A DNA stretch of 64,000 nucleotides, taken from positions 1,302,001 to 1,366,000 of the forward strand of contig JBCAMK010000019.1 of NCBI GenBank assembly GCA_038503065.1. The letters are read 5' to 3'. Positions 9,363 to 63,536 of this stretch are shown piece after piece. The first letter of the stretch is position 1. The number at the start of each line of letters is the position of its first letter. Origin of the DNA: Paragyromitra xinjiangensis (Eukaryota > Ascomycota > Pezizomycetes > Pezizales > Discinaceae). The notes under the pieces were generated by a model, which ran no database searches, was not told the origin of the DNA, and saw only the letters and a program-made list of their open reading frames with translations. Both the position numbers and the translations under genes were made by a program.

Positions 9363-9448
9363 ATCAGATACCGAAAATCCCGAAATAGAAAAAACAGACA
9401 GAGAAGAAGAAAAAGAAACCAGAGCAGGGTCACATAGCGACTCTGGTT

Positions 9449-10737: not shown

Positions 10738-10959
10738 GGTAAAGATATTTCCTTAGGTGATTTTGGAAATGGTGGAGTGTGTTGAGTTGGTCCTTAGGTA
10801 TTCGTGGTCCAACCAGTCGGGTACTACTAGCGTTGGTTCAGGGGTTCTTCGGGCAGTTGTGCAAGGGAAAAGGTGAAGGATGGATTGGTAAATCCGCGAT
10901 GCAATGCCCATAGAGCGTGTGTTCTTATGGTGAGGGGTGTGGATGAGGAAGCAACGTAA

Positions 10960-37984: not shown

Positions 37985-39061
37985 CTACTCGACTCTCCTC
38001 TCCACAAATACCTTCATAACATCCTCATATCCTCCCGCAGCCGCTAGATCATACGGCGACTTCCCCTCCGCATCTACTCCTACCTCTGCCCCACCATCAA
38101 GCAGCATCCCCACTACCACATCATACCCCTTCTCCGCCGCAACATGCAGCGCCGTACGTCCTTTTACATCCCTAAACTCAATCTGCGACGCAAAGCCTTG
38201 ATTAATCAAACAACTCACCAACACCTCAAGCCCATATAAAGCAGCTAAATAAATCGCCGGTCTCCCAGCGTCCGAAAAAAGCCCCCAGGTGATGATGCTC
38301 CTCTCAAGCAACAACCTTGCCAACTCCTCATCCCCCTTCGCATCCGCAGCGCCAAAATGGGTTTCCGGCCGTCCATATCTCGGTTCATAAAGAACCCGCG
38401 CACCATGGTCTAGTAGTAGCCGGGCAATACCGATGCGCCCGTACTCAACGGCGGTGCTGAGCGGCTTTGGAATGCCATCTCGGTCCGGGTGGATATCCTG
38501 CTCGAGGAAAATACTGATGACTTTTTCGTGGCCTAGTTTTATGGCCATGGTGATTGCAAGTCCCCGTGCGTTGCGGCCTCCGTAGGCAGAGTTTTTGAGG
38601 ACTAGTCTAAGAAGGGAGTGGTGGGGTTGCTTGACTGCCCAGCTGAGGGCGGTATCGCATTTTGTGTCCATCGAGCCGAGGAAGTAGGGGGGAGATATTG
38701 TGCCTGGGTCTCCGAGAAGGAGATGGCGGTGTTGGCCCATGACCCAGTCTAGTGTCGTGGGATCACATGGTCCGGGGGATTTGAAGCCGAGTTCAACTAG
38801 AAAGCTTGGTTGGCCGAACTTGGGGATGAGGATGTTTGGGGCGCCTGAGAGAACATGTTGAGCGAGTGGTCGATTTTCAGATACGACAGCCCAGAAAAGG
38901 GCAGTGAAAGAGTGAGATGGATCTGTGGCGAAGGAGTAAAGGCGGGTGCTAAAGAGGGAGGAGAAGCGGTGGTTAACGAGAATAAGGGAATAGAGGTCGT
39001 GAGCTGGGAGATGGTCACCAACAAGGATGATGAGTTCGTTGGGGAGGTTACTGAGAAGCAT
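37985..39061 (-). CDS. F-box/ankyrin-repeat protein, full-length member of the array
   Basis: A single exon encodes 358 aa. Residues about 4-45 form an F-box-like domain (LPNELIILVGDHLPAHDLYS), which usually binds Skp1 in SCF ubiquitin ligases. From about residue 125 to the C-terminus there are six to seven ankyrin repeats, the best being GRTALHVAAEKGYDVVVGML and GKSPYDLAAAGGYEDVMKVF. A substrate-recruiting role for the ankyrin part is inference. It is the first of three related genes on the same strand, spaced about 440 and 200 bp apart, and the only one with a complete repeat domain. Confidence 0.88.
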   Translation of the reverse strand: MLLSNLPNELIILVGDHLPAHDLYSLILVNHRFSSLFSTRLYSFATDPSHSFTALFWAVVSENRPLAQHVLSGAPNILIPKFGQPSFLVELGFKSPGPCDPTTLDWVMGQHRHLLLGDPGTISPPYFLGSMDTKCDTALSWAVKQPHHSLLRLVLKNSAYGGRNARGLAITMAIKLGHEKVISIFLEQDIHPDRDGIPKPLSTAVEYGRIGIARLLLDHGARVLYEPRYGRPETHFGAADAKGDEELARLLLERSIITWGLFSDAGRPAIYLAALYGLEVLVSCLINQGFASQIEFRDVKGRTALHVAAEKGYDVVVGMLLDGGAEVGVDAEGKSPYDLAAAGGYEDVMKVFVERRVE

Positions 39062-39502
39062 ATTGGGATCTTATCGTGACAGGAATTTTGGTAAGGATAA
39101 GGGAGGGGGTTATTCTTTAGTGTGCAGTCCTGAGAGTGTAACCGCCCAACCGCCTAGTAAGGGATGCAGCCACACGTTACACATAAGCCCTTCTGTTCGC
39201 ATTACCAGAAAAGCAAGTGGGGCCAATGTGCCCCTCCACAGCTAGCAAGGCTCCTGCAAATGTCGAGAAAAACGAGAGTAAATCTCTGGGACTTCAAGTC
39301 TGGCCGTTGTTTGTATCCATAGGTACTCGAACCGTCACACTTTTTCACACTCAATTTCGTTTCTAGCCCCAAGTTAAACTTGTTTTATAGAATACCAATA
39401 AGGTGCCTTCCAGCGGCAGCATAATGTCCTTGCGTCTATCTGTTTCAGCCTGACATAAAAACCCCACTATCCAATTCCTGCCTCAATAAAAACCTGACCA
39501 GC

Positions 39503-40096
39503 CTAACGAAAAATTTCCACCATAATCTCTATCCGCGGCCGCGGTGTCCCTTCTCCATCTGGGTTAACTCCATGCTCCAAGAGCATTCGCACAGCCTTCT
39601 CACGCCCCAACTGCGCAGCCTGAACCAACGCGGTCTCAGCCGAAGCAGGGCACCCATACGCTCTGGTATCAAGAACCAATTTAAGGAGGGGGTAATGCTC
39701 GTGCATGATCGCCCATGAGAGGGCTGTTGTAGACTGTAGAGGTGTGAGGTCTACGAGACGGAGTTGTCCCTGCTGACTCATGATCCACTCTAGAGTTTCA
39801 GGGTCGCATGGTGCGGGGGATTTGAGGACGACTGAGGCACGACGATTGTTGGATTTGAAGATGGTGATGTTGGGGGCTGTCGAGAGAATATGTTCGACGA
39901 GCGGACGGTTATTTTTTAGGACCGACCAATAAAGTGCGGGGAAGGAATGGGACGCAAGTGTGGCGAGAGAGCGGAGTCGAGAGCTGAGGAGAGAGGCAAG
40001 ACGACGGTTGACAAGGGAAAGATAGTAGACATCGCGAGCCGGAAGTTGCTCGCCTACGAGGATTACGAGCTCGTTAGGAAGATCGATAAAAGACAT
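39503..40096 (-). CDS. Truncated F-box/ankyrin paralogue
   Basis: This 197-aa frame aligns with the first about 200 residues of the 37985-39061 product: F-box LPNELVILVGEQLPARDVYY, then ALSWAIMHEHYPLLKLVLD and AAQLGREKAVRMLLEHGVNP. It stops right after GTPRP, where the longer gene continues with four to five more repeats. It may be a short functional protein or a truncated copy. Confidence 0.72.
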   Translation of the reverse strand: MSFIDLPNELVILVGEQLPARDVYYLSLVNRRLASLLSSRLRSLATLASHSFPALYWSVLKNNRPLVEHILSTAPNITIFKSNNRRASVVLKSPAPCDPETLEWIMSQQGQLRLVDLTPLQSTTALSWAIMHEHYPLLKLVLDTRAYGCPASAETALVQAAQLGREKAVRMLLEHGVNPDGEGTPRPRIEIMVEIFR

Positions 40097-40139
40097 AATA
40101 ATTGCGTGATGATGGTGTTTGGTGAGAGTGGTATTTTGT

Positions 40140-40297
40140 GAGGCGTATTCCGGTTTGGCGAGGTGTCTATATCCGGCATATCCTCCAATAGCAGCTCAAC
40201 CATCTTCTCATTCTTACTCGCTGTTGCCTGACTTCTTGGAATAATCCCACCAATCAAAACCCCATTTTCTAGGAAAAATGCTATAATCCCAAAATGG
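40140..40297 (-). pseudogene. Ankyrin-repeat remnant of the third paralogue
   Basis: Beyond the stop of the 40298-40828 frame, another frame reads FGIIAFFLENGVLIGG and NEKMVELLLEDMPDID, which resemble ankyrin repeats of the full-length gene. A frameshift or stop has separated them from their F-box part. Confidence 0.5.
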
Positions 40298-43951: not shown

Positions 43952-46900
43952 ATGGAAGCCGCTGGTGTTCTTTCCGTAGCTTTCGGACTGTATGAATTTA
44001 AAACCTCTTCTTGGTTTTTACATTATACTAACCAACTCACAGTGGACTTCTTCTCCATGCCTCACAAGCAGCCTTCTTCACCGCCATAAGCGGACACATA
44101 AAGACGCTATTCCTCCACCGTCGAAGGCTGGTCCTTCTCTCCTTCCTCCTATGCGTGTCCATATTCTCCATAACCCAGTTCGCGACACTACTACTACTAG
44201 AAGACGCATCATGCGGGGTCGCAGTACGGTTCACGCTCTTCTTCGACCAAGCAGCACGCGTAGCAGCACTCGCGCTCATAATCTGGAAAGTGTGCGATGA
44301 AGCCGGCGCAAGGACCGAGGCGGTGATGTGGGTGTCGATTATTGTGTTGCGGATACTCATGGGTGGGATTATGGTGGGATTCACCGGGATGACGTTCATG
44401 CCGGTGTGTTTTCCGCAGCCGATGCATGTGGTTGTTGGGATTGTCCTTACGTCGTTTGATGGGACGGTGTGGGCTGTGCTTGGGTGGAGGATTATTGGGA
44501 TTTGGATGCTGTTTGTGGATCAGGGACGAGCAGGGAATGGAGGTGGGAAGAGTCAGGGGTATGGGTTGTTTTTGATCGTGTTGGGGTTTGTGGGGTGGAC
44601 GATTGTAAGTGTTATAGGCTTCCTGGAAGGAGAGGGGAGGAATGGGCTGACTGGTGGGCAGGGGAGTTTTCCATATATGATGAGTGTAGGGGGAAGTATT
44701 TTCATCAGGATGATCCCGTATATTTTGACACTCGCACTCTCACTCGGTAAGAACCCCTAGATATCTTTAAAGAGATCAAATTAACCTTTACTTCTATCCA
44801 TAGGTGTCCTTAGTTGTTTCCCATCAATCGTATTCTCTGTCCCTATTAAGGACGACTCCTACAACTCCCACAAACTGCGACGTTTCGGATCATCCGTGTC
44901 CAGTCCTCCAAGACGAGGCAGATCTGCCTCCTCGCCTACCTTCAACGATCCGGAAGCGAATAAATTCACGTCCTACGGAATGGGCAGTTTCGACAAGAAC
45001 TATAACGGCGCGCGTAATAGCCAGATGTTTAGAAGCATACTCGGTGCGCCGATCGTTCACCCGGGTACTGCACTCCCTTGGTCACTCGACACGGATGTTA
45101 CAGAAAACATCACTCGACCGAAGCCGGTGAAGGCCTCTGAGAATCGAAGACCGAGTGTAGCACCTTCCCATGGTGGTAAAGCGAGTATATCTGGGCCGAT
45201 GGGGCCAATACTGAGGAATGGGTCTTTCGATGCAGCAGAAGGGACGGCGGAGGGACAGGTGCCGACTAGCAACCCGTTTGGAAAGGTAAAGACAATAGAT
45301 CTAAGGACAGCAGCAGAGGCGGAACGACAACGGATAGATGCAGCATTTGAGCGGGAACAAGAGAGGAAGTCCGCAACTCCGTCTACAGCGAAGAGCACAA
45401 CACCGGGTAGGAGTATGGATAGGTCAACGAGCGTTAAGAGGAAGCCGTTGATTCCGCAGCTTCCTTCAGGCCCGGCAGCGTATAGGGTTAGTGCGGTTAG
45501 TGGACTACGTGGGGTGCCGCGGGAGAGTGGAGTGGATAGCCCGTCGAGTTTGAGGCAGTCGGTATATGCGGGTGAGGATTGGGGCACGGGGTATGTTACG
45601 CGTGCGAATAGCATATCTACGGAGGACGACGATACTACACGATACACGGTTGTTTCGCATGCTCCGTATACGCTTGGTGTACCATCAAGGGGTCCACCAC
45701 CAAGGATTCCGCAACTGGAGGGGGTGGGGGGTGATGCGAAAGTCATGTTTGTGAATGAGATAGTGTATGATCATCCAGCACTAGTGAACTCGATTGTGGG
45801 AAATTCGATCGCGGGGAAACCAGATATTGCTTTATCGACTTCGAGATATTCATATTCTTCAGGGACAACAGTGAGAAGGAGCCCCTCATCAGCTTCTAAG
45901 CAGCTTCCTGGGATCTTATCACCTACCAGGGAGGGCGACAAGCCATTTACGTCTTCGCTTTCAGCACCAGTTATGGATAGGCCAAGAAATCTGAAGAAGG
46001 AGCTGGATAGAGGAATTTTCCCGCCAAATAGGGACTATGAATTAGCTGCGGAAATGAAGTATAAGAAGGAACGTTTGACAATGACATTGGAGAGAGCGTC
46101 GAATCTCCCGCCACCAGCGTCTAGTTCTAAACCACTATTCTCCCCGCCGAAGCAACAGGGGACTGTTAAGAAGAAACCATCTAGAGAGCTGGTATTTCCA
46201 ATTCCCCCCATTAGAGCAACGAGTAGGAAACCTGCTCCTCCTCCAATCTCGATTACTTTTCCTGCGATTTTCTCTCCAGAAATTGTACAAAGGCTGCCAA
46301 CTCCTGACACCCCGGAGGAAATCCCAAGTGCCAAACCTGCTATTCCCGAAAAGTCTGAGAAGCGTACGACGCCTGGCGTTAGCGAGCACCGGGCTATGAA
46401 TATGCAAGACGAAGATGCTACCTACGAGACTGCACAGGCGTGGTTAGACAGTATGTCTCCAATTGAAGAGACCACACGCTCTTCCTATTCCGATAGTCTG
46501 GTTGAACCCCTCCCTTCAACCGCGTACATGCCCGAGAGCCGTATCAGTTCAATGAGTAGTTTGAACATGTCAGGGTTCACGGCTAGCACGATACTACGTG
46601 GGAGTTTGATATCGCTCACGATATCGCCAAAAAATAAGGAAGAGGATGAAGGGGAGTTCACAGATATTGATATCGATTCTTGCTCTGAGATGGAAGAAAA
46701 CGATGATGAGGGCTCCGACGAGCTTACCCAAAGCGAAGCAGACGAAATGATCATGAGCGGTGGCGAGGGTTACTCCTCAGAAGGGGAGTCCTACGAGGAG
46801 GACTATTTCACCGATAGTGATGAAGGACGAGGATATCGTGATGATGGTGTTGTGATCTCAGACGTCGAGGACGGAACTACATACGACAAAATCGCACTGA

Positions 46901-49900
46901 CAGAAAGAAAACTTAACGCGAAACTACACGCCTTCACGGCCGACCCCCTACCCGATGCTATTCCCCGTCATTTCCGGATTGGGGACCGGATCCCCACATT
47001 CTCTGAAAGTCGGCGCAAGTATGGAAACCGAAGAAAGCCTCCGCCATCTCCGATTGGGTTCCTTATGCGTCAAAGGCGCGAGTCTCAGCAACAGATCCAG
47101 TCAAGGCTTATGATGTTGGCTGGGAACCAGACCCTCGCTCCTCTTGAGGATCTCATGAATAGGCTCCCTGCTGGCAGCAAGAGAGATACCCGAGTGAGCT
47201 ACATCTCCGATGGTCGAAACTCCCTTCTTGCTCGTCTCGAAATGGAAATGGGCCAGCAAGAAAGTCAATGGATGGGTATGCAGCAAGACCTGAAGAGAGG
47301 TTCGATAGAATCTAGCGAAGACTCTCCAACACAAAAGATGGCACGACTATCTCAGAATCTTGCTCAACGTCGCTCGTTACTGGCAAAGCTCAACAATGGT
47401 ATCGATAGAAGACTTAATGCACAGACGACGATGACTTCCAGAACGAATATTTCGCCCCTGCCTTCGCCTGGCGCGTCAGATATGTGGCAACAGAAATTGG
47501 CAGAAGCTCAGATGGAGTACTTGGCACAGGCACCATCATTTTCAAATAAGGTAGGTGAAATGTCACTCAAACCGATGTCTATCTTGGCGAGTCAGCACAC
47601 ACCAGTCTCGGTGGTTTTAGGGTCAGAATTTGATCACTCAGAGGTTGAATCGCCTTTGAGCATTCATGGTGAGGCCCAGAGGATGTCCTTTTACCAGAAT
47701 GATAACTTGAACTTTGTCATAGAAGAAGACGACACGGAGGAAGAAATTGAGGATTATGAGGTTGAATATGAAGAGGAAGAAGAGGAGGAAGAGGAGAAAT
47801 ATTACGAAGAAGTTATTCAACCATTGCAGGCCACTGTGTATTGTCCTAGCATTCGCTCCGCCAGTCTCCGGCAAGAGTCCCCAGCTCAGGGTGTCTACTC
47901 CTCAACTACTGAATCCTTCTCACCAAGGACTAAACCTCCTGTCTCACTTCTCTGGAACCTGCGCATCCCTCGGGAAACAACATCGGGAAAAAACCTATTA
48001 TGGAGCTACCGTCCATCGACGCCAAAATCCGCCTTCGTCTTCCCTCCCGCTATTGATTTGCGGCCAAAGCAACGTATTTCCACCGCACCCATTGCGAAAC
48101 CTACTTCGCACCTATGGACCAAACCCCGCCCTACTCGTTCTACTTCCGTAAATGGATTATGGCATAACCCGAAGGAAGTCAGAACGAAGAGTATCATTAT
48201 TCTCCCGTCCGAAACTGGCCGTACAAGGCGTTCCCTCAAGAGGGTAACGTTTGTTGAAGAAGTAGTAATTGGTAAGTTTCACACAAAATTATTGAGAAGT
48301 TATTTTATGGCTAACTATCTATGCTACTGAATAGTCGAGCCTACGGGTATCTTTGGGAGACTGAAGAAGCTTTGGGGAACACCAAAGAAAGCCCCTCAAC
48401 CAACAACAGACGTTTCTGCTATCCCAACTGTCTCGAAATCTTCCAATGCTCAACAATCTAAAGTCGAAGAGAAATCTATTGGGAAGGTTATGGACGCCAT
48501 CGCCATCAAGTATGCGAACAAAATGCTCCCACCACTTCCAGTTGAAGAGTCCGAAGCGCCTGAAGTACCGGCTAAGGACCCGCGAACCATCGTCCATAAT
48601 GCGCTCTGGTCCAAGAAAGAGAACATGGCATTGACTTTAGACAATACAAAGCTGTGGGTTTCGACCCCGACACCAAAACCTGAGCAAGCGCTGTTCACAA
48701 AGGACGTATCAGAAATCCGCACAAAGCCTAGAGCAGCCGTACCTTCGGTCCTTGAGTCAAGTAATCTTTGGGGAATAACAAAACCCACGGTATCCGCCAC
48801 ACTCTGGAAAAAAATACATCCCGGATATCTCTGGCCTCAAGGTCCAACTGTTGCTACTCCTTCGGGACATCTCTGGCCTTCCGCTCCCTCATTGCCTGTA
48901 GCTGAATATGGTCCCGTTCCTCGGTTTACTCGAGCACCATCAGCACTTGCTCTGGCGCCTTTGGAATCCACCGAACTCTGGAAAGCCGTAGTTGTCAACC
49001 GGGAGGCTGAGGAGTCAACTGGGCTCTGGTCTGGCACATCTACTGGTGGTCAAGGTCTTTGTTTACTCGGGTCTGCAGATATCCGTACATTTGACTACCT
49101 CTGGCCCACAGCCGCCCCTCTTCCGACCTCGTATCTGATACTTGACGTACAACCCGCTATTCGGTCTCGCCCAACAGCCACGCTAGAGGTCCTGACATCC
49201 CATAAACTCTGGAAGTCAGCACCAACCGTCACTACGTCAGCACTATGGACCGCTCCGGTGAAAAAGAGTGCACTATGGCCACAAGGGGAGGTTATCAAAG
49301 CCACAACTGGGAGTCTCTGGCCTTCTGCAGCCTCAATAAAATTCCAGATTCAAGCCAGGCCTCACTCGTATAGAGCACCATCCACACTCGGTCTAGCATC
49401 ATTGGAGTCTGCTGAACTTTGGAAAGCGGTTGTTGAGCTTGAAATGGAATCAACCGGGCTCTGGTCTGGCAAATCTAACCTTACCCACGAAGAAATCTAT
49501 TTCGAAGAGTCTGCAGAAACTCGTACATTTGACTACCTTTGGCCCACAGCATCTCCTCTGCCTACTTCATACCTGGTCAACGTGGTACCTCTTCGATCTC
49601 GCTCATCTACTGCTGTCCTCCCAACCCTAGAATCTTGCGAACTCTGGCGGCCAATATCAGCTGCCGCTCCACCAAAGTTATGGACTGCTCCATCTAAAAA
49701 GAGTGCACTGTGGCCACACGGGGAGGTTTTGAGGGTAGATTCAGGGGCCCTCTGGCCTTCTGCCGCTTTGCTATCACTCGAAGTTGAAGCTATACCTCAC
49801 ACTCACAGAGCTCAATCAGAACTTGCTTTGACACCATTAGAGTCTACCAAGCTCTGGAAAGCAACAGTTACTAAATACGAAGAGAGGTCAACCGGACTCT

Positions 49901-52900
49901 GGTCAAGCAAATCTATCCCTTCTCATGACCAAGAATTCTGTTCTGAGGGGCCAACATATACCCATACACGCGACTACCTCTGGCCCACAGCCGCCTCTCT
50001 CCCAGTTTCACATCTAGCCATCGATTTATCACCTCTTCTCCGATCCCGCCCACCCAACACCGTCCTCCCAACCCTAACATCCCACGACCTCTGGCAGCCA
50101 GCATTGGCTACGCCAAAACTATGGACCGCACCAACGATGAACAGCGCACTATGGCCACAGGGCGAAGCCTCGAGAACCTCAGGAAGTCTCTGGCCATCCG
50201 CTGCCTCACTACCATCTGAGATGCAAGTTGTGCCACACTCATATAGGGCTCCATCAACACTTCCCATGCCACCACTCGAATCTACTGAGCTTTGGAAAGC
50301 AGTGGTTGAGCAAGAGGTCGAAGAGCCAACTGGGCTTTGGTCTGGCGGATCCTGCTCTTACGATCAAGAAGTGTGTTTCGAAGAGCCTGCGCAGACTCGT
50401 AAGGTCGAGTATCTTTGGCCTGCAGCTTCTTTGCCAGTTGAATATCTAATCGTTGATGTACTACCTTTTGGCCGGTCTCGCCGATCTACCACCCTTACAA
50501 CCCTGGAGTCCCGTGAGCTCTGGCAGCCGGTATCAGCTATTAGTGCGCCAGTGCTATGGGCCGCTCCAATGAAAAAGAGCGAGTTATGGCCACAGGGTGA
50601 AATATTGAGGGCTTCAGGAAGTCTCTGGCCTTCTGCTGCTACATTACCGCTTGAAACTGAGGTTAGGGCTCACTCATACAAGACACCGAGAACAGTCGCA
50701 CTAGGATCATTGCAGTCTACAGGTCTCTGGGGCACGACAGCTGTCACACCAACACTATGGACCGCTCCAACGAAGAAAAACGCGTTATGGCCGCAGGGTG
50801 AAATATCAAGAGCTTCAGGAAGTCTCTGGCCTTCCGCCACTACCCTACCATCCAATCTCGAAGCTAGACTTCACACATACAGAGCACCAAAACTCATACT
50901 AACACCACTACACTCCACACATCTCTGGGGTACTGCAGCTGTCGCACCAACACTATGGACTGCCCCAGCGAAGAAAAATGCGTTGTGGCCACAGGGTGAA
51001 ATATCAAGAGCCTCAGGAAGTCTCTGGCCTTCCGCCGCCGCACTACCATTTAGATCCGAAGCTAGACTTCGCTCATACAAGACACCGAGAACACTTGCAC
51101 CAGCACCACTACACTCCACACATCTCTGGGGTACTGCAGTTATTACACCAACACTCTGGACCACCCCAACGAAGAACAACCCACTATGGCCACACGGGGA
51201 AATCTCAAAAGCCCCAGGAAGCCTCTGGCCCTCCACCACTACCCTACCATCTACCCCTGAAGCTAGACTCCACACTCATAGAGTACCAACACTTGCATTA
51301 GCACCACTACGGTCTACACATCTCTGGGGCACGACAGTTGCTGCACCGACACTATGGACAGCCCCGATAAAGAGGAGTGCGTTATGGCCACAAGGGCAGT
51401 TGGTTAAATCCATAGTAGGGGGTATGTGGCCTTCTGCGGCGGACTTGGGTGGTGTGGCCGAGGCTGTTGTTCGTGTTCGGTCACGGCGCGTCACTGTGGT
51501 AGGTGTTGTGTCTGGTGCGCTTTGGGTGTGTTGTGAGGAGAGAGGGGAGGTGGTGGGAGGTGGGCTTTGGAGGGGGGAGAGGGTGGGGATGGATGTTGGG
51601 GGTGTGGAGAGTATTGAGGAGGAGGAAGAGGAGGAGGAGGAAGTAGAGCAGTCAATCAAAGCCAACCTCTGGACAAGGCCGCAAAATACACCTAGCACCG
51701 CTTCTAGCCATCTCTGGCCCTCAGCACGCCAACTACCCGCATACCCCTTACTTGCGTCCAACACCCATACCCATTCCCTCCCCGCCCCGCTTCAACTACT
51801 TCAATCTACCTCCCTATGGCCTGCCAAACCTGCCCAAGCCACACTATGGTCTTGCCAAACCCAACAACCCGGACTCTGGCCCTCTGGAGCCCCCGCCAAG
51901 ACCGCTCTTTGGCCATCCGCCTGCCCAATCCCTACCCTAACCCTTGAATCCACACCACATAGGTCTCAACCCCTCTGCGCACCCACAATTTTGCAATCCC
52001 ACCACCTCAGGAACGAGCCCATCAAGGGACTCTGGAGCCAAGTCCCGACGGCCGTGGCAGCGGGATTAGGTCGCCAAGATGCGCGTAATTTCCGAGCCGA
52101 GACCACGGCACAGCTTTGGAGCGCGAAGCCGCAGGTTATAAAGAATGGGCTGTGGCCCGGAGGAGAGGTTGATAGGATTGGTCTTTGGCCTTCTGCGAGT
52201 TTGCTTTCGGTACCGATGGATAGAACTGTTATTCGTGCCCGGTACGTACCGAAGGATCCTACGATATTGGAGTCGAGGGAGCTGTGGAAGACGGATAGTG
52301 CACCGACATTGTGGACGAATCCGGAGTCGAGTAGATTGTGGCCCTGTGGTAAGGGTAGGGTTGTTTCTTCCGGGCTTTGGTGTGCGCCGGATAATGCGGT
52401 AATTTCCAGAAGGTCGAATCTTACGTTGGAGATAACAGTTGGAGAGAGGGTGGTCAGAAGGAGGGATGTAATGGGCACGATTAAGACCGTTTCGGGGGCA
52501 CTTTGGAGCCGGCCGGAAGAATCACGATTAGAGATCGATTATACCAGTTTGCCGGTTTTTGATATTACTGGGTCGGAAGCGGCAGTCGGTTTGGCAGTGC
52601 CGGGATTATGGGTGAGGCCATCTCCCGGCGGTGTTGCTCCACGGAGAAAGACGGTTCTCTGGGCTTCGCCTTTACCCGAAGCATCGCATCAACGCACATC
52701 GACGCTGTGGGATTCGACTGCAGCTCTTGCGCAAATCAACGCGCGCGCGCGAGATAGATGTGAATTGTGGAGCAGACCGATCTCTGCACGCCTGCCCGCG
52801 GCCTCTCGCTCGAAGAGACGCACTTCCAGCCCATTGGAACCTGCCACGGGCTCGCTGTGGTCTCCAGCGCGCGATGAAGATCCCGCTGTTCATTCTGGAC

Positions 52901-55900
52901 TGTGGGAGTCTCGGGCTTTGGCATTCGTTCCCCCGAAATGTGACAAACCACACCACCACCCGGCAATTCCGGTGCCAATCCCTGCCGCGCGATCAAAGTC
53001 GGTGAATAAGCGAGCGTCGAATATCACCACTTTTGCTCCCCCGCTTTTCTTGGCGTCACCACCAGAATCACCGCGCGCTCCTGCCCGGATGTGGCCCGCT
53101 TCGGAATCTTTCTCCCGTCCACGTGAACTATGGCGTCCGCCAATATCAGGTACGGAGAACGCTCCTTGGTCTTCAAACACCACACCTGCCCTGAACGAAT
53201 TGGCCACCACAGAGACAGAATCGAAACTCTGGTCGAAATTGCATTCTGGAAACTTGCTATTCTCCGACACAACACAATCCATCCGGTCAGTTAGGAATCC
53301 CGGAACCTCAATCACTGTCTCTATGGAAGGCCCACTCTGGAAATCCCCCGAGAACGTCTCGGATCTATGGCGTAAGAAGGAGGAGTTGTCGGAACTATGG
53401 TCCGTCAATGGCATCACTGCGTCAGTGACCGTCCCCGTTGCAACGACACATTTGTGGTGCGAAAACCCGAGCGCCACGGCACCCATCTTCGCAGATCTAT
53501 CTCTCGAGTCTTCTCGCAGCCGCCGTGAATTCACCAGCAAAGCTTTTTCAGCTCCTCCAGAGGGACTATGGAAGAAAGCAAGTGAGCCGGCAATTGAACC
53601 GAACACTGGGCTCTGGGGGACGGTCGAAACACCGACTCCCGAGAAGCCTCTTTCATTATGGCAGAAAGACAGTACTGCGGCCCCCATGTTCGCTAATCTA
53701 CCTGTTGAGTCTTATCGCTCGAAGAAGGATCACTCGACCGTCACACTCCCCGTTTTCTCCGAGGGAATGTGGAAGAAGCGTGTGGCTCTTCCAGAAGAGC
53801 CACAGCTATGGAAGCCAACCCCGAAATCGACATATCTATGGGACAGCAGCTCAAAAACAAAGACGTTAGCGCAGATACTGCTAGAGAAGAAGGCAAAGGA
53901 GATTAAAAAGCCACTCTGGACGAAGAACCAAGCTTCAAGGACAACTACAAAGACCCCACAGAGGTCACCACTCGTGACAGTACGGATATCGGACGACACA
54001 ACTCTCCCAAAGGTATCCGGTGGCCTCTGGAAGCCAAAGACGGCCGCGAAACAACTCCCACAGCTCTGGACACCGCCAAAGGTAGTTGCAAAACCAGCAA
54101 GCACACCTCTATGGGCAAAGGAACACGCATCAAGGAGAACAGAAGCTGTTCCAGAAAGAACCAAGGTCGCCTTCATACCCTCGGACACCCCACTCCCTGT
54201 TGTCTCCGGCACGCTCTGGAAGCCAAAGTCACCAGAGAAGAAAATCGGCCTCTGGCAGCGCCCCATCAAGACAGTGGCTACATACCGTCGCACGAGCGTC
54301 TCTGTGCCTCTCTGGGCGAAGGAAACAGCTTCCCGCACTACTACAGCCCGTCCAGAACGCCACACATTCGTTCCAAAGAAGAAAGAAGCCTCAACCACAC
54401 TCAGCAGAGTCTCCGGCTCCCTCTGGCAACCTAAAGCCGCACCACCCGACAAACTCTGGGAAGCACCCACACCAGCACCCAAGCCCCGCCGCGGAAGTCT
54501 TCTATGGGCCAAACACGCAGCATCCCAAGTGACGACACCCCTCCGCACATCCGTCCCAAAACACGTCATCGACCCGCCACTCCCCGTTGTCTCGGGCACA
54601 CTCTGGCACCAAAAACCCACCTCAGACGCCAAAACCCTCTGGAAACCCTCCGTCGAAACCACCCCACCCCACACCACCTCCCCACTCTGGTCGAGGGAAC
54701 ACGCATCGCGAACCACAACCGCCCGTCCCTCCCGCGCCCCATTCGTCCCAAAACCGTCCCCCAAATCCCACATTCTCCCCGCCGCAACCGGCGACCTCTG
54801 GAAACCCGCCCCAGTCCCAATCCCAGTCGCACTATGGACCCGCAAGTCCTCCACCACTGGTGTCTGGGACGCCGAAGGCCGCACTCCTTCTCTAGCTGAA
54901 ATCAACCGTCGTCTCGAGGCCCGTCAGAACTCACTATGGCAGCGCCGATCAGTCCTTACGTCGAAAGCAGCATCTGCAGACCCAGTCATCACTAAGCCAT
55001 TCGCGCAGAAGAAAAAAATCGACACAACCACTCCACCCGCAATTGGGAACCTCTGGCAGCCCATCTCACCTGTTGTCCATAGTTCCGTAATGTGGATTAC
55101 GCGCTCGTCGAGAAGCTCCTCGGTTGATGGGGAGTTTGTGTCACCGAACTTATCGCGTGCGTCGACACTGTCGGATATGAGCGAGGGTGAGATGTCGCCG
55201 ACGGCGATGGAGGATAGGTTTGAGCCGGGGATTGCGAGGGTGCATTCTACTAAGGCGAGTATTTCGTCTTCAGCTGGGGAGATGTTGTGGCGTCCGGCGG
55301 AGTATGGGAAGAAGAAGGAGCTGGCGTTGTGGTCTGGTGAAGGTCGGGAGGAGAGGAAAAGCGTGTTGGTTTCTGAAAGGCCGACGAGGGTTCCGTTACC
55401 GGGGGATCAGGAGCGGGAGTTACCAATGTTTGATGCGAGCCATTCACTATGGAAGCCAAGTGTTGAGGAGACGAAGGTGAGAACCCCTCCCCCCTGAAGT
55501 GGTAGTAATGTCTAACCGTAATAGACGATCTGGACCAATTACGAAACCCTCTGCGATTCCAGCTGCTCAGAAACCGACTTCCATGATGCCGAATCCCGCG
55601 ACGACGACGAGTGTTCATCCCACGACGCAGAATCTGATTTTCACGACGCCGAGTCCCAGCTATCCGACGACTCACACTATGAAGACTTCGAACACATCTC
55701 TCCTCAACGTCAAACATTCGAACTCGACCATTCCCCTGCTTCACAATCACATGTCGTCGTTGGTCAATTCCGACGCGACAACTACCTCCCTCGTAAGTCC
55801 CTTACTTCTCTCCGAGAAGCACGTGCTAACCTTCTAGACTCGAGTCAAGCTGAACAAGTGCTTCCGGAGGGTTCGCCCTTCGCGAGTAATCTCCGGATCC

Positions 55901-56076
55901 GCTCGCTGCGCCGGAAGCTGCGCCCGACTATCACACATCCGGAGGAGAGGCGTCGTGAGGCTACGGCCGCGGAGGAGAGTTTGAGGGAGAATTTGAAGGG
56001 TGGGGATGGTGATGTCGGGGAGATGAGCCCGGTGGCGCCGGGCGCGGGGTGGTTGTGGGGTAAGGGGATTGTTTAA
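43952..56076 (+). CDS. Giant seven-helix membrane protein with an LW-repeat tail
   Basis: Six exons (43952-43989, 44043-44746, 44804-48271, 48335-55476, 55525-55792, 55838-56076) join in frame to about 3,952 aa. The first about 250 residues contain seven hydrophobic segments, ending near LALSLGVLSCFPSIVF. The remaining about 3,700 residues are soluble, low in predicted order, rich in Ser/Thr/Pro, with acidic clusters (about 46640-46860, 47725-47810, 51613-51650). The striking feature is a Leu-Trp (occasionally Met-Trp) pair repeated about 110 times, mostly every 10-30 residues, in contexts such as SGSLWPSA, TAPTKKNALWPQGE, STELWKAVV and FDYLWPTA. The first pairs appear near 47950 and the very last lies at the C-terminus (GWLWGKGIV). 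No frame break occurs over 12 kb. I recognise no described function; a membrane-anchored multivalent scaffold or tether is inference. The strongest evidence for one gene is that all five junctions keep frame and the motif spans three exons. Confidence 0.88.
48965..51440 (+). repeat. Coding higher-order repeats: four of about 145 aa, then four of about 66 aa
   Basis: Within exon 4 of the giant gene, a unit of about 145 residues with seven LW pairs repeats four times (48965 to about 50720). A shortened unit of about 66 residues with four LW pairs then repeats four times (to about 51440). The short unit equals the long one without its ELWKAVV-TGLWSG-YLWPTA part. The DNA copies are diverged, so the arrays are not very recent. 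Confidence 0.85.
54000..54850 (+). repeat. Second coding repeat class in the giant gene, about 60 aa, five copies
   Basis: Copies share LPVVSGTLWKPK, then an LW pair, then PLWAKEHASRTTTARPER. They are distinct from the upstream class except for the LW pairs. Spacing varies by a few residues. Confidence 0.8.
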
Positions 56077-57328
56077 AATGTGATTATTTTGTTTGGGGTC
56101 GTTTTGATAGGTTGGGTTTTAAGGTGGAGGGTGGTGGTGAGGTTGAGGGGAAAATTTAGGGAGGGGGTTTCCTTATTGTCTTGCTTTTTTTTACTTATTA
56201 GGGAGGGGGATGGTGTGAGATGGGTTGTAAATGGCGTCGGGCTTTTTGATTTGCTTTTTTTTTGGTTCGAAGTCGGGATTGTGCGGGTTTTTCTTGTGCG
56301 GAACTTTTTTATTTTACTTTTTTGTCCGGGGACGGGGAAGTGGGGATGTATGGAGACGTGGGCGAAAATGTGGGAGTACGAAACTTGAGTAGTTTATGTT
56401 TCTTTTTTTTGTTTCCATTTTCCTTATATGATGGATCGTTATTGAAGGGGGGGTATTTATTGACCTTTATTATTATCTGTCGTGTTTTAGTTTAGTTAGC
56501 TAGCGTTTGGAGGGAAGTTTTTAATTTAAGCTTTTTCTTCTTTCTTAGTGCTACGCCCTAGCAAGCGTCATGGGTAGTCACTCGATATACCCGCGGGGTT
56601 TTATTTATCCCTTCTTCGTAAGCGGGATTAACCCATCTTCCGTTTATCGGGTATCGCATCCCCATAGGTCCTGGCTTCTAATTGGTGCTTGTGTGGAAGG
56701 GTCTAGAAGCACTATCGCGTGATATCACGATATATATAGTGGAGCTGTTCGCCCTCTCCTTTCTTCGAAGCACCAACTCACTTATCTTTCGCCAGATAGC
56801 TTTTGTTCTCGTCTACTGGATTGGCACCGGAACTCGCCGGAGTCTGAAAACGCATTGTTAGACTAAAACCGGATTGCATAGACAGGAAGCGCTTTTGGTA
56901 TCTGTTGCCGAGGGACGGGTTCGAACCGCCCAATGGAAATGCGAGGCCTCGGAAAACTAAAGTAAGATCATAACCGCCACTCCAATCAGAATAAGGAAGG
57001 AGGAACTGAATTTGATGTGTTGTAGGAACCGACTAATTCGGTAATCTGCTTCGGTTGAGCTGTGCGAGTGATATCTCATGATGCGCAGATCCTACGGCGT
57101 TAAGGAAAGAAGCTGTATACGATATTGCGGATTGATCCGAGGCGACCTGAGATAACATCTTTTCATGTTGGGGATGACATGTCTCAGAACCTGCAAAAAC
57201 ACCATAAATCCGGTTCCAACATGATATTCACCAATCGAACTATATAACAAAGCCTTCAACAAACTCCATTATTCCCCCCCCCTCCTCTACCCCACACGAA
57301 ATCCCGCACACCACAATAAAAACCAATC
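56077..57328. other. Intergenic region with a tRNA-like B box and a TATA-like site
   Basis: On the minus strand GGTTCGAACCC (56928-56918) matches the RNA polymerase III B box and is followed by CCTCGGCA like a tRNA 3' end, but no matching 5' acceptor or anticodon arm was found. A TATA-like ctatataac at about 57239-57247 precedes the next gene. Otherwise nothing is seen. Confidence 0.35.
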
Positions 57329-58111
57329 ATGAACTCAAGACCGTATACCACCCGCTTCAGAGAGCACTTTGGAACCCCCTTTATCACGCGTATAGCCAAC
57401 GTCTCTCTCTCCGAGTCACTCCGTCTCGAACTCATCGATGCTGAACAAACTCGTGACGCTATTGCAAAAGCTATCGTTCCGGTCGCGACGGAGTTAGACT
57501 CGATCGCTACAATCCATAGGGACCTGACCACCGTTCTTGCGAATTACCACCACTTCTATACCTCACGGGGCCTGAAAGATCCTGCAAAACAGGCGAATCC
57601 GTTAGATGTACAGGCTATCGAGTTAGGGAATAGGGTTGCATATCTGCAGGAGCATAAAAGGCTGTTAGAGGAGCGCTTGGGGATATGGAATGCGAAGGTT
57701 GATGGATTAAAGTCGAAGCTGCTTGCTGCGTGTCATATGAGGCCGTATATGCATCCTCCACCGTTGGCACCCTCAGGATTACCTCCTTCGAGAACACCAC
57801 CCTCTTTGAGAACATCACCCTCTTTGAGAGCATCACCCTCGCTGAGAGCATCACCCTCTTTGAGAACATCACCCTCTTCGAGAACCCCACTCTCTTCGAG
57901 ACCCTTACCTCCTCCGGGACCCCCACCTTCGTCGGCACTCCCAGCATTACCTCCTTCACCACCTTCATCTCCTTCGAGACCTTTACCCTCTCCGGGGCCC
58001 CCGCCCCCTCCGAAAACTTCTCCATTGCCGCCCCCACGGCCACCGCCTTCGCCGCCTTCGAGATCTCCACCTCCACCTCCTTCAAGACCGCCGCCTCCAC
58101 CACCGATATAG
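57329..58111 (+). CDS. Hypothetical coiled-coil protein with proline-rich tail
   Basis: A 260-aa frame starts at the first ATG after a TATA-like site. Residues 1-135 are helical with heptad-like spacing (LRLELIDAEQTRDAIAKAIV, LGNRVAYLQEHKRLLEERLG), suggesting a coiled coil. The rest is a Ser/Pro/Arg repeat (SLRTSP, SLRASP) encoded by an 18-bp tandem repeat, then proline runs. The repeat region is also open in a second plus frame (57730-58209) and on the minus strand (58103-57615). The second plus frame ends in a protein-like segment (ALFLSLLEPL...LLAAFEGALF), so a splice or frameshift joining the coiled coil to that frame is possible. No family is recognised. Confidence 0.6.
   Translation: MNSRPYTTRFREHFGTPFITRIANVSLSESLRLELIDAEQTRDAIAKAIVPVATELDSIATIHRDLTTVLANYHHFYTSRGLKDPAKQANPLDVQAIELGNRVAYLQEHKRLLEERLGIWNAKVDGLKSKLLAACHMRPYMHPPPLAPSGLPPSRTPPSLRTSPSLRASPSLRASPSLRTSPSSRTPLSSRPLPPPGPPPSSALPALPPSPPSSPSRPLPSPGPPPPPKTSPLPPPRPPPSPPSRSPPPPPSRPPPPPPI
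57790..57910. repeat. 18-bp coding tandem repeat, about seven copies
   Basis: Units close to tttgagaacatcaccctc repeat head to tail. They give SLRTSP in one frame, LFENIT in the next, and FSKRVM on the minus strand, with no stop in any of the three. Confidence 0.85.
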
Positions 58112-58209
58112 CCCTATTCTTGTCGCTCTTAGAGCCTCTGACTCCGTCTACTCCATCTATTCCTGAAAACCCGGAGCTCTTGGCCGCATTCGAGGGCGCT
58201 TTGTTCTAG

Positions 58210-58776: not shown

Positions 58777-61362
58777 TCAAAGAAAAACCATCGGACTGTC
58801 TCTCCTCTCCAGTCCTATTTTCTCTCGGGACGCCTCCTTCCACCCCATCTCCCCACCACCGGCCACCACCGGCCCAAACTGTGAATTAACCGCATTCTCG
58901 ATATCCACGGTCGACATCTGGCTCAATACACTGCGGCTGCGGTAAATCACTGGCTGCAGCCCTAGACCCTGGCTACCAGACCTGAGCATATTTTTGCCCT
59001 TAATCTTTTTCTTGCTATCATTAATCTTGCTCTGAGACTCGTTTTCCTTGTTCTTGGACTTGTTGATATTGGAGCCATAGCTTCCGTTATTATTATTATT
59101 GCTAGAGGTGGTCCTAGGGGCGCTTTTGAGAGTATTGTTGTAATTTTCATTAGTGGCAAGGATACTGCTACGACTCCAGTTAGGATTATAATCTTTGATT
59201 TTAAGCCCGCTTTTGATCTTCAGTTTTACTGGAAGGGCGTTAAGATTGGTATTGCCGTTGCTACGGTGCATATACTCACTACGCCTCTGTGGTAGTGGCA
59301 TTTTCTCGGGCGGGGTATTAGTAGTGGTGCTGTTGGTGTAAACGCTCGAGTTACTATCCATAACTCCTGTAGCTTTCCTATACGGGCTTGGGGTCGACTC
59401 CCTCACGACTTCGTCAACAGAACTTGAGTATGGGAAGAATGTCGATGTAGATCTAGCCACACGCAATCTCCTCTCTGGCGTTGAAATTTGCGTAGTCGGT
59501 AGGGCATGCAATGGTGCCGGGGTAATGCCATCAAGCTTGCTATTCCGGCTAGTTGTTGCCCTCGAATTCAAATTCATCACCCCCTCTACTTCTGCTGCCG
59601 GAGTCCTATTCAGCCACACGTTGGCACCGCTAGGAGTCTCACCCGCAGCCTCTTGGCGATAAAACATTGGCAACGCCGGCACAGGCGGAACATAAAACGA
59701 TTCTTTTTCATCTTCTGAGTTCTGCCTCCATCTGCCACTATTTTTCCTAATTGCAGTAACCACAGTATTTGTCGATGCAGCTGTGTACGGTCTTTCAAAT
59801 ATGCCTTCCTCCTCTGGCCGCAGTCCTAATCCTGGTGCAAAGTAGTATCCGGGACCATGGATATATTCTGCCTCTTCTTTCTTTGCACGAGGGGAGCCCC
59901 TATCTAGACGTTTCATCAATGCCGAGTAAACCCGTTTTGCTTCATAACTTTTCTGAGATTGCTGCTTATCAAACGATGGTGGAGAATAAATATTTTCCTT
60001 CACTTTGTTTGGCACATTCTCGTCAATAATAGATAACCGCTTCTTACTCGCGAGATAATTTCTGTCGAGTGTAGCATTCCATGTCGACATACTATCTGTA
60101 GTCACTGACATATCTCTGTGAGGAGGTGGCATTGGTGGAGTTGCCTCGCCGATTGATCCCGTCGCAGAGCGCAGCATTTCGTATGAAGGGACATGCCTAA
60201 AGGTTGGAGCCCTCGATACAACAGCTGGTCGAATCGTCAAGTTATTTGGATCAGGAATATCCAAAATATTCTCATGCAGCTCATTAGGTGAGACATAATC
60301 TCTGAAATGTTGTCTCGTGCTCGTAACGTGCTGTTCTGGGAATGCTGGCTCCAACTTCACCTGCTTCCCGAAAGCCCTCCTCATAGTGCCAAAGAATGAA
60401 GCTGACATCTTTCTCGCCTTTTCACCAACTGCCTTCCTGACTGAAAGCTCCTTTTCATCACTTGGCTCCTTTTTCTTCCCACGAACTGTTTCGGGAAACA
60501 CAATCGGTTTCTGTTCACGTCTTGCAGATGCAGAAAGATAAAATGACTTTCGTTCCTTCACAATTGGCTTTTCTGCATACTGCTTCCTCAACGACTCTGG
60601 CATGAAATCCGTCCCCCCACGAAGAAACGACATAGATCGTCTCCGACTCCCAACGCCCTCCGGAGACAGTTCAGACGAATAGACAACAGACGACGGATAT
60701 TCGTTGGTTGGCTGTTGGGGCACCTGCCCAACACTAAACACAGACTTCGTCTTGCGAAGCCTACGGTACGAGGATTGCGTCCCGGTATCGGAAGGGCAGT
60801 CTCCAGCATCAGCTGCCGTGAAATTCAATGAGTGGCGAGGACGAGGTGTAAATCGTTGCTGCTGGAGATCCTCCTGCATGCTCCATCTTCTTGCCTTGGC
60901 AGTGCCAGCCTCACTGATATATTCTGGAGATGAAGCAGCATCATAAGACATCCGCTGGCCGGCTGCTCCAGATGCCTTGGCAGTATTAATATCGGCAAGG
61001 GCAGTTGTCCCAGCAACGGCAGTAACAGCAGTATTATTGGGTACGGTTGACGACATTTTCACAGCAACTGTCGAGTATCCGTCATCTCCATCTGTATCTG
61101 TTGTACTCTCATCTGTGTAACGGTTATCAAGAGGAGTTAAAAATCTGACTATCTGGGATTTGCGACGTTGTAGATCATCACCGTAGGCACGCTGAGCTGC
61201 AGCAATAGCCTGTTGGCTTCTCTCCTCGGGTGCCAGCATCTCAGACTTCGTTATTGTGGGATGTGAAACGGTTTTCGACCTACGGAGCCGACTGTTACGG
61301 CGGATAGTGGCATGTGCGGTTGTTGGGCTGGGAGAAGCGATGGTGTTGCGACGGGAGAGCAT
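58777..61362 (-). CDS. Uncharacterised basic, Ser-rich 861-aa protein
   Basis: One uninterrupted frame of 861 codons starts at the ATG at 61362. The protein is basic and mostly disordered, with many Arg-rich serine sites of the kind used by basophilic kinases and 14-3-3 proteins (RRKSQ, SRRRSMSF, RRSEY, RSRSV). One short amphipathic basic helix is likely (SASFFGTMRRAFGKQVK), which could bind membranes. Towards the C-terminus there is an Asn run followed by a Lys-rich part and a conserved-looking end (SQMSTVDIENAVNSQFGPVV). No enzymatic domain is visible and I recognise no family. Length and clean frame make it very likely a real gene. Confidence 0.85.
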   Translation of the reverse strand: MLSRRNTIASPSPTTAHATIRRNSRLRRSKTVSHPTITKSEMLAPEERSQQAIAAAQRAYGDDLQRRKSQIVRFLTPLDNRYTDESTTDTDGDDGYSTVAVKMSSTVPNNTAVTAVAGTTALADINTAKASGAAGQRMSYDAASSPEYISEAGTAKARRWSMQEDLQQQRFTPRPRHSLNFTAADAGDCPSDTGTQSSYRRLRKTKSVFSVGQVPQQPTNEYPSSVVYSSELSPEGVGSRRRSMSFLRGGTDFMPESLRKQYAEKPIVKERKSFYLSASARREQKPIVFPETVRGKKKEPSDEKELSVRKAVGEKARKMSASFFGTMRRAFGKQVKLEPAFPEQHVTSTRQHFRDYVSPNELHENILDIPDPNNLTIRPAVVSRAPTFRHVPSYEMLRSATGSIGEATPPMPPPHRDMSVTTDSMSTWNATLDRNYLASKKRLSIIDENVPNKVKENIYSPPSFDKQQSQKSYEAKRVYSALMKRLDRGSPRAKKEEAEYIHGPGYYFAPGLGLRPEEEGIFERPYTAASTNTVVTAIRKNSGRWRQNSEDEKESFYVPPVPALPMFYRQEAAGETPSGANVWLNRTPAAEVEGVMNLNSRATTSRNSKLDGITPAPLHALPTTQISTPERRLRVARSTSTFFPYSSSVDEVVRESTPSPYRKATGVMDSNSSVYTNSTTTNTPPEKMPLPQRRSEYMHRSNGNTNLNALPVKLKIKSGLKIKDYNPNWSRSSILATNENYNNTLKSAPRTTSSNNNNNGSYGSNINKSKNKENESQSKINDSKKKIKGKNMLRSGSQGLGLQPVIYRSRSVLSQMSTVDIENAVNSQFGPVVAGGGEMGWKEASREKIGLERRDSPMVFL

Positions 61363-61784
61363 TGTGGTGGGAATTTGATCAATGGATTGGAGTTAAATTG
61401 TCCACAACTGTTGGTGATGAAAGCTATTTGCTGTGTTATAGTTATGGGGTGGTATATTAGAGACAAATGGGATGTCGTTGGAAGCTGTGGTTTGAAGTTA
61501 TATCACGCGCAAGTGGCAACGTTAGCGTCACAAAGGGTCACTCGAGGCAAAGCATGGTAACTCTAGATTAGCTTTTCCAAAGTATCGAATTTTGTTTCGG
61601 ATAACTTGCATATGCATAGAAAACCAAGAATCTTGTTCAATTTTACCTCGGAATGAAAGGAAAGTGAAGAACCAGAACCAATGTATCCAGCCAAAATCAA
61701 AAACCCCCAGGTATAGAGCTACATATTTTCGTAAACGGTTACAAAATAGTACAACACCCCCTTTACACAAATTAAACCCGCCAA
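61363..61784. other. Short intergenic region
   Basis: Holds the promoter of the 861-aa gene and the 3' end of the peptidase gene; no other feature is seen. Confidence 0.5.
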
Positions 61785-63536
61785 CTAAGCGAGACTTCCC
61801 ATCGGATCCCACACCGGCAAAGCGAGGGGATCCTGCTTAAGTACGTCCAAAATCTCCTTGCTAACATACGCGGGGTCAACCACCGCCTGATAACAGTACT
61901 CGCTCATCCACTCGTCACTCATAACGAAATAGCCCTTATTTCCAGAAGCATCACCCCATGAGTTCTCAATTCGCCATTTTACTGGCTTTCTATCAAGGAT
62001 GTGCACCCCGCTGATAACCATGGCGTGAGTCATTAAGCTCTCACCGGTGAGAAGCCTTTGTGCTTTATTCATTCCCAAATTGACGTTGAATCCGAGTTCG
62101 TAGTCGAATAAGTTGACGTCCATGACACCTTTTTGGGTTTCTGAAAACTTCCCAACGTCGCATCCGAAGAAGACGGGGCGTTGCGCTTTGATCATGGAGA
62201 TACAGGCAGCCTTCATGGTCTTTTATTTTGTTAGTCTGGCATATGAATATGGGAGTTGAGTAACTTACGTCCATATCGACATTGACATATCGTATGCCCC
62301 TCCCGCCAACGACGTTCCCCAGTCGCTCCACAGTTAACAGCCTATTATAAGGGTTCCTCGGATCATTGATGAGTGAGAACCTTGCCCCTACGCCTTTATC
62401 CCCCGTACCCAAAATATCGCCTCCCAAAACATTCTCCAGCATCCCAGCAGCGCCGAGACAAACAACCCCAATATTCTCCTTATAGAAGTCCAGCGGGGTG
62501 ATAGTTAGGGAATTGTGCTTCCCATCCTTCTCATAGTAATTCCATGTGAATGTATCGTCTGGTTTCGGAGGAACACCGAGCGATAGAACGAGGATACCAT
62601 AGACTTGCTGGATGATTTTAGCTTTGTATTTTTGGAGCTCATCAGACTTGTTACTACTAGAGGAACTGGCGATATCGCGGCTAAGGAGGTAGATTGTTAG
62701 TTTTATATTATTTTAGGAGAGGAACTGTACTCACAGGGTCAAGGCTGCTTCGCGGAGTTTGGCTGTGATGAGCCAATTGATGCGGGATGAGGCCTTGGCG
62801 TTGAATGAATCAGGGTAGAGAATTTGCGGGACTAATCCATATTTCTCAACCAAGTTGACAACCATATCCCATTGGCCGCCATCATTAACTGGTGCATGAA
62901 GCAACCACTGCACCAGCCTGCCATCTAGCGGTTCATCGGTAGTATCGATGACCTCTGTTCGCAGCCATGCTTCGTCAGCAACCATATCTAAAGCGTGGAT
63001 AAAACAAACATACGTTCCAAAAAGAAATTCGCTTTTTCTAGTTTGTCCCAGAAAAACAAATAACTTTGTGACAACTCAAATCCACCGAGTTTGTATTTCT
63101 TAATCAAGCCCACTCGAAACACGTTGGTGGCTGCAAATAGCCAGCATCTTCCTGAGGATCGTTGATGTGTTACTGGCGAGCCCTCTAAGTCAATCTTGTC
63201 GCTGAAGATATGCGAGTCATTGAGCAAAACTGATGGCCTCTGTAGGATATCTGTCGCTGCATGTGTAGTAAGTGCAGAAAGAGCAAGTCGGTTCTGGTAT
63301 TCTTGTTAATTGTGACGAATGTGGCTAAATGTCAAGGGTCCTACCTTAGGATCGGCAAGAAGTTTCTCTTCCCATCTGATAACCGATGAAACCTGAAGGG
63401 AGAGCGAAGGCTCAATTTCGGAATCTGTGTCTTCGTCGCGTAACGACAGATTACTGAGTTTAGAGTCCAAACAGGATTTGTTCTTTTCAGAGGTAGGATA
63501 TGTGACCACACGGGGTTTGGAGTGAGAGGAGCCCAT
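61785..63536 (-). CDS. LAP3: Bleomycin hydrolase (peptidase family C1B)
   Basis: Five exons (63536-63345, 63293-63014, 62987-62735, 62680-62269, 62219-61785) give 523 aa. This papain-fold aminopeptidase, called bleomycin hydrolase, Lap3 or Gal6 in yeast, normally forms a hexameric barrel in the cytosol and detoxifies homocysteine thiolactone and bleomycin. The catalytic triad is visible: Cys114 in QRSSGRCWLFAATNVFR, His444 in SLMTHAMVISGVH and Asn465 in RIENSWGD. The C-terminal arm ends LPVWDPMGSLA, the self-processed tail of the family. The ATG at 63536 (MGSSHSKP) was chosen over one six codons upstream because it gives the N-terminus usual in fungal relatives; MGSSHSK also fits an N-myristoylation signal. 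The gene appears intact. Confidence 0.95.

Follow-up and report, generated by a model that had tools for sequence, protein, structure and literature searches.

Chains that carry many weak motifs, either unfolded or linked to a membrane, constitute a known type of device, exemplified by FG nucleoporins, GW hooks and the Rubisco-binding-motif proteins of the pyrenoid. The FG/GLFG nucleoporins are unfolded chains with many hydrophobic dipeptide motifs (FG/GLFG repeats), and the GW/WG Argonaute hooks (GW182, NRPE1) are disordered proteins whose many Trp dipeptides dock into Trp pockets while the flanks drift. The Rubisco-binding motif also contains Trp. Besides, Trp can serve in the Atg8-binding (AIM/LIR) core, [WFY]-x-x-[LIV], which often has acidic residues upstream. 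Among seven-transmembrane proteins, the rhodopsin-like receptors possess a characteristic Cys pair forming a disulphide. In Chlamydomonas, the cited account describes the Rubisco-binding motif as recurring in several proteins, including the transmembrane RBMP1 and RBMP2, proposes that it ties an abundant partner to the membrane, and presents EPYC1 binding as weak and multivalent (PMC10473226). In the Pezizomycotina, Leashin (Lah) has been described as a giant protein that tethers Woronin bodies and combines repeats with a membrane region (PMC2690989, PMC5345055). Its repeats, as characterized there, are acidic and PELS-rich (LPVDEDLDLLPALPES, PEEVELPASP), with coiled coils (PMC2690989), and its single membrane segment is placed at the C-terminus (PMC5345055). 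The septal pore proteins SPA/SPP, in the description given, are disordered, rich in R/H and poor in K/G (PMC10023807).

The present study concerns a window of 64,000 nucleotides from Paragyromitra xinjiangensis (the whole stretch of DNA analysed), in which an earlier note, made from the sequence alone, had read a gene of about 3,950 residues whose five introns keep the frame. That five-intron model forms one frame from the ATG at 43952 to the stop at 56074-56076 and encodes 3,952 aa. The frame is intact; however, a sixth intron had been missed. In alignment, P0002 (Morchella snyderi) and P0003 (Choiromyces venosus) are devoid of a 19-residue stretch of exon 2, and since these missing residues fit the coordinates exactly, we infer an extra 57-nt in-frame intron. 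The better gene model has six introns and seven exons, and its predicted protein is 3,933 aa long. The N-terminus reads MEAAGVLS both here and in P0003, and the C-terminus reads GAGWLWGKGIV here versus SAGYLWSKGIV in P0003. Thus, both ends of the model are supported. The features of the locus are as follows.

43952..56076, forward strand: the predicted gene as a whole, with frame-consistent splicing and both ends matching Choiromyces P0003
43952-43989, 44043-44604, 44662-44746, 44804-48271, 48335-55476, 55525-55792 and 55838-56076, forward strand: exons of the better model
44605..44661, forward strand: sixth intron, 57 nt, in frame (GTAAGT...CTGAC...CAG), its residues being absent from P0002 and P0003
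43952..44853, forward strand: N-terminal domain (residues 1-245 after splicing), predicted to cross the membrane seven times, from hydropathy, loop charges, Cys and low-confidence AlphaFold helices
44854..47931, forward strand: linker, residues 246-1271, almost without LW, from alignment with relatives
47932..56073, forward strand: LW tail, residues 1272-3933, 2,662 aa, with 113 [LM]W among 117 Trp
50554..51392, forward strand: tandem 67-aa (201-bp) LW modules, 4.2 copies with 78% matches, from Tandem Repeats Finder
53401..54480, forward strand: conserved LW block, 360 residues with 16 LW/MW, from alignment with 15 relatives
55525..56073, forward strand: conserved C-terminal end (VGQFRRDNY...SPFASNLRIRSLRRKLRPT...LWGKGIV) with the last LW at its end, from alignment with P0003 and P0005

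The linker holds conserved boxes, such as HFRIGDRIPTFSESRRKYG...KPPPSPIGFLM, and its identity to five relatives is 0.31-0.56 over residues 301-1260. The C-terminal end is 0.24-0.50 identical to that of P0002, P0003, P0005 and P0019.

Protein searches recovered at least 19 relatives (P0001-P0019). Six of them are identified to species (Morchella snyderi, Choiromyces venosus, Tuber borchii, T. aestivum, T. melanosporum and T. magnatum), and all six are annotated as 'hypothetical' or 'unnamed', with no named function. The relatives span few lineages, and several are Tuber. The searches need shared 5-residue words and are limited by protein length, and two of the three scored the best candidates only. 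No named match lay in Pezizomycotina beyond the truffle and morel genera, searches of this reach being too limited for a claim of absence. When its own genome (48.2 Mb, 22 contigs) was queried with the tail and with P0009, this gene alone appeared among the best candidates scored. A plasmid search gave no match. Several of the public predictions resemble gene fragments. P0001 and P0011, on contigs both 43,285 long, may be two halves of one gene, and these two, as well as P0004 and P0006, seem to be split or cut short close to the intron that precedes the long exon of the tail; given this appearance, the gene may be under-annotated elsewhere.

The most striking property of the tail is the residue in front of Trp. 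Leu or Met precedes 113 of the 117 Trp. When the tail was shuffled 1,000 times with its composition preserved, the count averaged 12.5 and never exceeded 24. The dipeptides include 109 LW, 3 LF and no LY, and Trp (117) outnumbers Phe (39) and Tyr (30). All six Leu codons are used for the Leu before Trp, so the recurrence is not a plain DNA repeat; this codon usage, together with dN lower than dS in similar repeats, ruled out a DNA-repeat artefact. The tail is net basic (K+R 311, D+E 247) and rich in P, S, T and A. Steps from one LW pair to the next are most commonly ~10, 13, 15 and 32-38 residues, in a range of 9-171. Thus, the spacing is not simply the 10-30 residues given by the earlier note. 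The pairs are organised in ~67-residue repeats, mostly with 3-4 LW each. A fixed rule, which left out the tail stretches outside it, delimited 27 modules. These are 46-86 residues long, and their LW pairs typically follow one another at steps of 10-12, 10, 13 and 34-38. Fifteen module pairs were more than 55% identical, a cut that favours low dN, and gave dN of 0.14-0.36, dS of 0.33-1.83 and dN/dS of 0.15-0.43. The number of [LM]W pairs is 60-115 in the five predictions longer than 2,700 aa, at least one of which is truncated, and 55 in P0019. Changes in copy number seem to arise from tandem duplication. AlphaFold, run on the 360-aa tail block with 16 sequences, returned a mean pLDDT of 49.6 and one short helix, i.e., a chain predicted to be unfolded, which agrees for that block with the low order first ascribed to the tail. 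Against PDB profiles, the tail had no match up to E 1.

Whether the LW pairs are conserved while their flanks drift was run as a refutation test on the 360-residue block, which was picked from the best conserved part of the tail. Fifteen relatives entered this test; the remaining four (P0001, P0004, P0006 and P0009) were unmatched and, from their length and few LW, were judged to end before the block. Trp was kept in 238 of 239 aligned cells and the preceding Leu/Met in 234 of 239. Corresponding counts were 119 of 149 for Gly, the next best type, 208 of 533 for Ser, and 2,409 of 4,816 for all other positions. Over the whole tail, in seven relatives (819 cells in all), 494 of the 534 aligned Trp cells were Trp, and the 40 others included 7 Tyr and 3 Phe. 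In the relatives' own tails (n = 15), L or M precedes Trp in 932 of 1,009 cases. The spacing also runs in parallel, with steps of 37-13-10-26-37-13-15-35-12-20 here and 37-13-10-24-36-13-18-35-12-19 in T. aestivum.

Since aligners favour placing Trp on Trp, the pairs were masked before a control alignment. In the masked block, Trp coincided in 197 of 240 cells versus 2,652 of 4,868 (54%) for other positions; the direction is the same and the effect weaker. For P0019, the most distant relative, the control fails, with 5 of 16 Trp coinciding. The relatives' stretches in this control were too wide (706-765 aa), which harmed the register. In a larger masked test of the C-terminal block, 13 of the 15 relatives matched 21-31 of the 34 Trp, and P0008 and P0019 barely aligned there (0 and 6 of 34) with no Trp matched. 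Masked alignments of the whole tail were poor (46/81 aligned for P0002, 4/81 for P0019 and 1/27 for P0008), probably because the repeats lost register. Unmasked, P0019 kept 53 of 73 Trp. The expectation of conserved pairs within drifting flanks thus came through the test, with the masked control weaker and P0019 failing it. Gap openings per 100 were 3.1-6.3 in the LW block (seven relatives) versus 4.6-7.8 in the linker (five relatives) and were equal in P0002. These near-equal indel rates suggest that LW spacing is not strongly constrained, and strict spacing, weakly supported by indels just slightly rarer in the LW block, was set aside as a constrained feature.

Seven hydrophobic segments had been noticed at the N-terminus, and six of them exceed a hydropathy mean of 1.6 (19-residue window). 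The third (residues ~76-94) is weaker, peaking at 1.52, and forms a helix in a low-confidence AlphaFold model. Beyond residue 245, no 19-residue window exceeds 1.26. The stretches after segments 1 (+4/-0) and 7 (+7/-2) are clearly basic, the loop after segment 5 is weakly basic (+2/-1), that after segment 3, at +2/-3, is neutral or slightly acidic, and the loops following segments 2, 4 and 6 have zero positive charges. The basic stretches past segments 1 and 7 place the tail on the cytosolic side, and the charge pattern favours a predicted orientation with the N-terminus outside and the C-terminus inside. The weakness of segment 3 and the +2/-3 loop that follows it make this topology uncertain. 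C50, C70 and C135 are matched by Cys in P0003, P0009 and P0019, and C70 and C135 sit in the predicted outer loops preceding segments 3 and 5. The domain resembles rhodopsin-like receptors in its seven predicted segments (the third weak), its predicted outside N-terminus and its two kept outer-loop Cys, but differs in a far longer tail. Neither Pfam nor Foldseek gave a match that would support its membership of this receptor class. The AlphaFold model of the seven-segment part was poor (pLDDT 48), exon 2 having been submitted with the 19 intron-encoded residues included, and with this model Foldseek found no structural match at E 0.001, the best being at E 1.9. Pfam returned no accepted match up to E 10 for the membrane part (exon 2, P0003 and P0009), none at E 1 for P0002, P0003 and P0009, and none at E 0.1 for four pieces of the window; the best for P0019 was DUF29 at E 0.36, below the cut-off of DUF29. 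A PDB profile search of the seven-segment part also gave zinc transporter 7 (E 0.11), which was not accepted as evidence.

How does this locus compare with the described systems? The likeness to EPYC1, RBMP1 and RBMP2, drawn from their published description, lies in a short recurring motif that is partly carried by transmembrane proteins; EPYC1 is described with five binding regions, versus 113 pairs here. Rubisco is not the expected partner, as the named relatives are fungi. The FG nucleoporins differ in the dipeptide itself, FG there and LW here. FG-type repeats are not found in the tail, where 39 F stand against 117 W in 2,662 aa and LW is by far the prevailing pair, and the present protein has seven predicted N-terminal membrane segments. 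Similarly, GW/WG hooks have G beside W where L/M stands here. Of the 116 Trp past residue 1300 in the five-intron model, Gly precedes one and follows eight, whereas L/M precedes 112; a predicted membrane anchor is a further difference. As for the composition reported for SPA/SPP, residues 1401-3952 of the five-intron model contain 6.0% R, 5.4% K, 2.3% H and 4.7% G, given here as plain percentages and not on the scale of the cited description (PMC10023807).

We consider it moderately probable that the tail, predicted to be membrane-anchored and cytosolic, is a multivalent scaffold in which each LW/MW docks into the hydrophobic pocket of a putative partner. The main rival is a self-cohesive gel: the LW pairs would be mutually binding stickers, and the tail would self-associate as a membrane-attached gel or condensate, like FG nucleoporins, without a specific pocket. 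Regular aromatic-aliphatic pairs on a chain predicted unfolded where modelled, in a copy number that varies among the predictions, would all suit such stickers. Simple stickers, though, are expected to be more interchangeable than the W and its L/M are here, where 10 of 534 cells have F/Y in place of W and the position before it is taken by L/M, with V, I or F as rare exceptions. This consideration disfavours the gel, which we regard as rather doubtful. The same selectivity for L/M before W fits, as far as can be inferred from sequence, a pocket of defined shape more readily than unspecific stickiness, and it is the retention of L/M together with the near-absence of F/Y substitutions that makes us prefer the pocket. 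An elastic, length-setting tether like Leashin, whose tail would span the distance from membrane to organelle and bind at its ends alone, is unlikely. The present protein is indeed giant, predicted disordered, repeat-rich and membrane-linked, and its C-terminal end is conserved; yet a pure spacer is not expected to retain W in all but one of 239 cells. Moreover, the tail is net basic with LW modules as its repeats, in contrast to the acidic, PELS-rich, coiled-coil-bearing repeats that the source gives for Leashin (PMC2690989), and its membrane part is at the opposite end, with hydrophobic segments in residues 1-245 alone rather than in the C-terminal position described for Leashin.

Two further readings fare worse. 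A tail folded into solenoid-like or bladed repeats, with the LW as core residues, would account for the ~67-residue period and its 3-4 LW per repeat, and we regard it as distinctly improbable in view of the low pLDDT and single short helix of the modelled block, the P/S/T/A-rich composition and the PDB profile result given above. The suggestion that the pairs are Atg8-binding (AIM/LIR) motifs, which would make the protein a selective-autophagy receptor, is very improbable. The earlier note had remarked that several LW pairs, such as LWKAVV, have the W-x-x-[LIV] shape, and 10 of the 117 Trp do fit it; however, with the W core alone scored, composition predicts 22. Acidic residues just upstream of Trp are also scarcer (0.056) than the background (0.093). 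With both the core and the upstream acid below expectation, the Atg8 idea is not supported.

Under the docking scaffold that we prefer, an anchored chain with more than 100 weak [LM]W sites would gather many copies of a partner at one membrane and would thereby build up a membrane-bound cluster or hold an organelle in place. The spacers between the pairs evolve more freely and the copy number seems to shift via tandem duplication, so the valence may be tunable. A candidate site for the scaffold would be the region around the septal pore. A bolder and more tentative proposal is that [LM]W is read by a dedicated Pezizomycetes pocket protein, and that the receptor-like anchor with its >100 sites sets up a duplication-tuned membrane condensate, possibly a septal-pore or organelle gate of truffles and morels. 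A literature search with LW terms found no such protein, by title or abstract start, among the papers listed, subscription journals being mostly outside its scope. If the scaffold reading is true, a new short-motif system ([LM]W and its reader) would join the few known multivalent disordered scaffolds. It would also offer an extreme natural test of valence, with >100 similar sites per anchored chain in a number that varies between species, and a molecular handle on the cell biology of the truffle and morel group.

Elsewhere in the window, retroelement remains lie at 5796-10752 on the reverse strand, with RNase H, integrase and chromo domain (Pfam on 5796-7925) and upstream ORFs that, read by eye, are protease/RT-like and gag-like. 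A hAT-type transposase ORF (Pfam Dimer_Tnp_hAT) occupies 17548-19086 on the reverse strand. Two adjoining ankyrin-repeat ORFs with similar starts, at 37985-40195 on the reverse strand, are likely a tandem duplicate pair, and the first has an F-box match below cut-off. Downstream of the gene, 57320-58209 contains 6.4 copies of an 18-bp unit in tandem (57786-57901); both strands have long open frames there, and one of these frames is rich in Pro. At 58777-62712 on the reverse strand, an 871-aa ORF without Pfam match adjoins a Peptidase_C1_2 gene in two frames, presumably split by an intron, which we take to be of the bleomycin-hydrolase type. The 871-aa ORF and the Peptidase_C1_2 gene are possible synteny markers.
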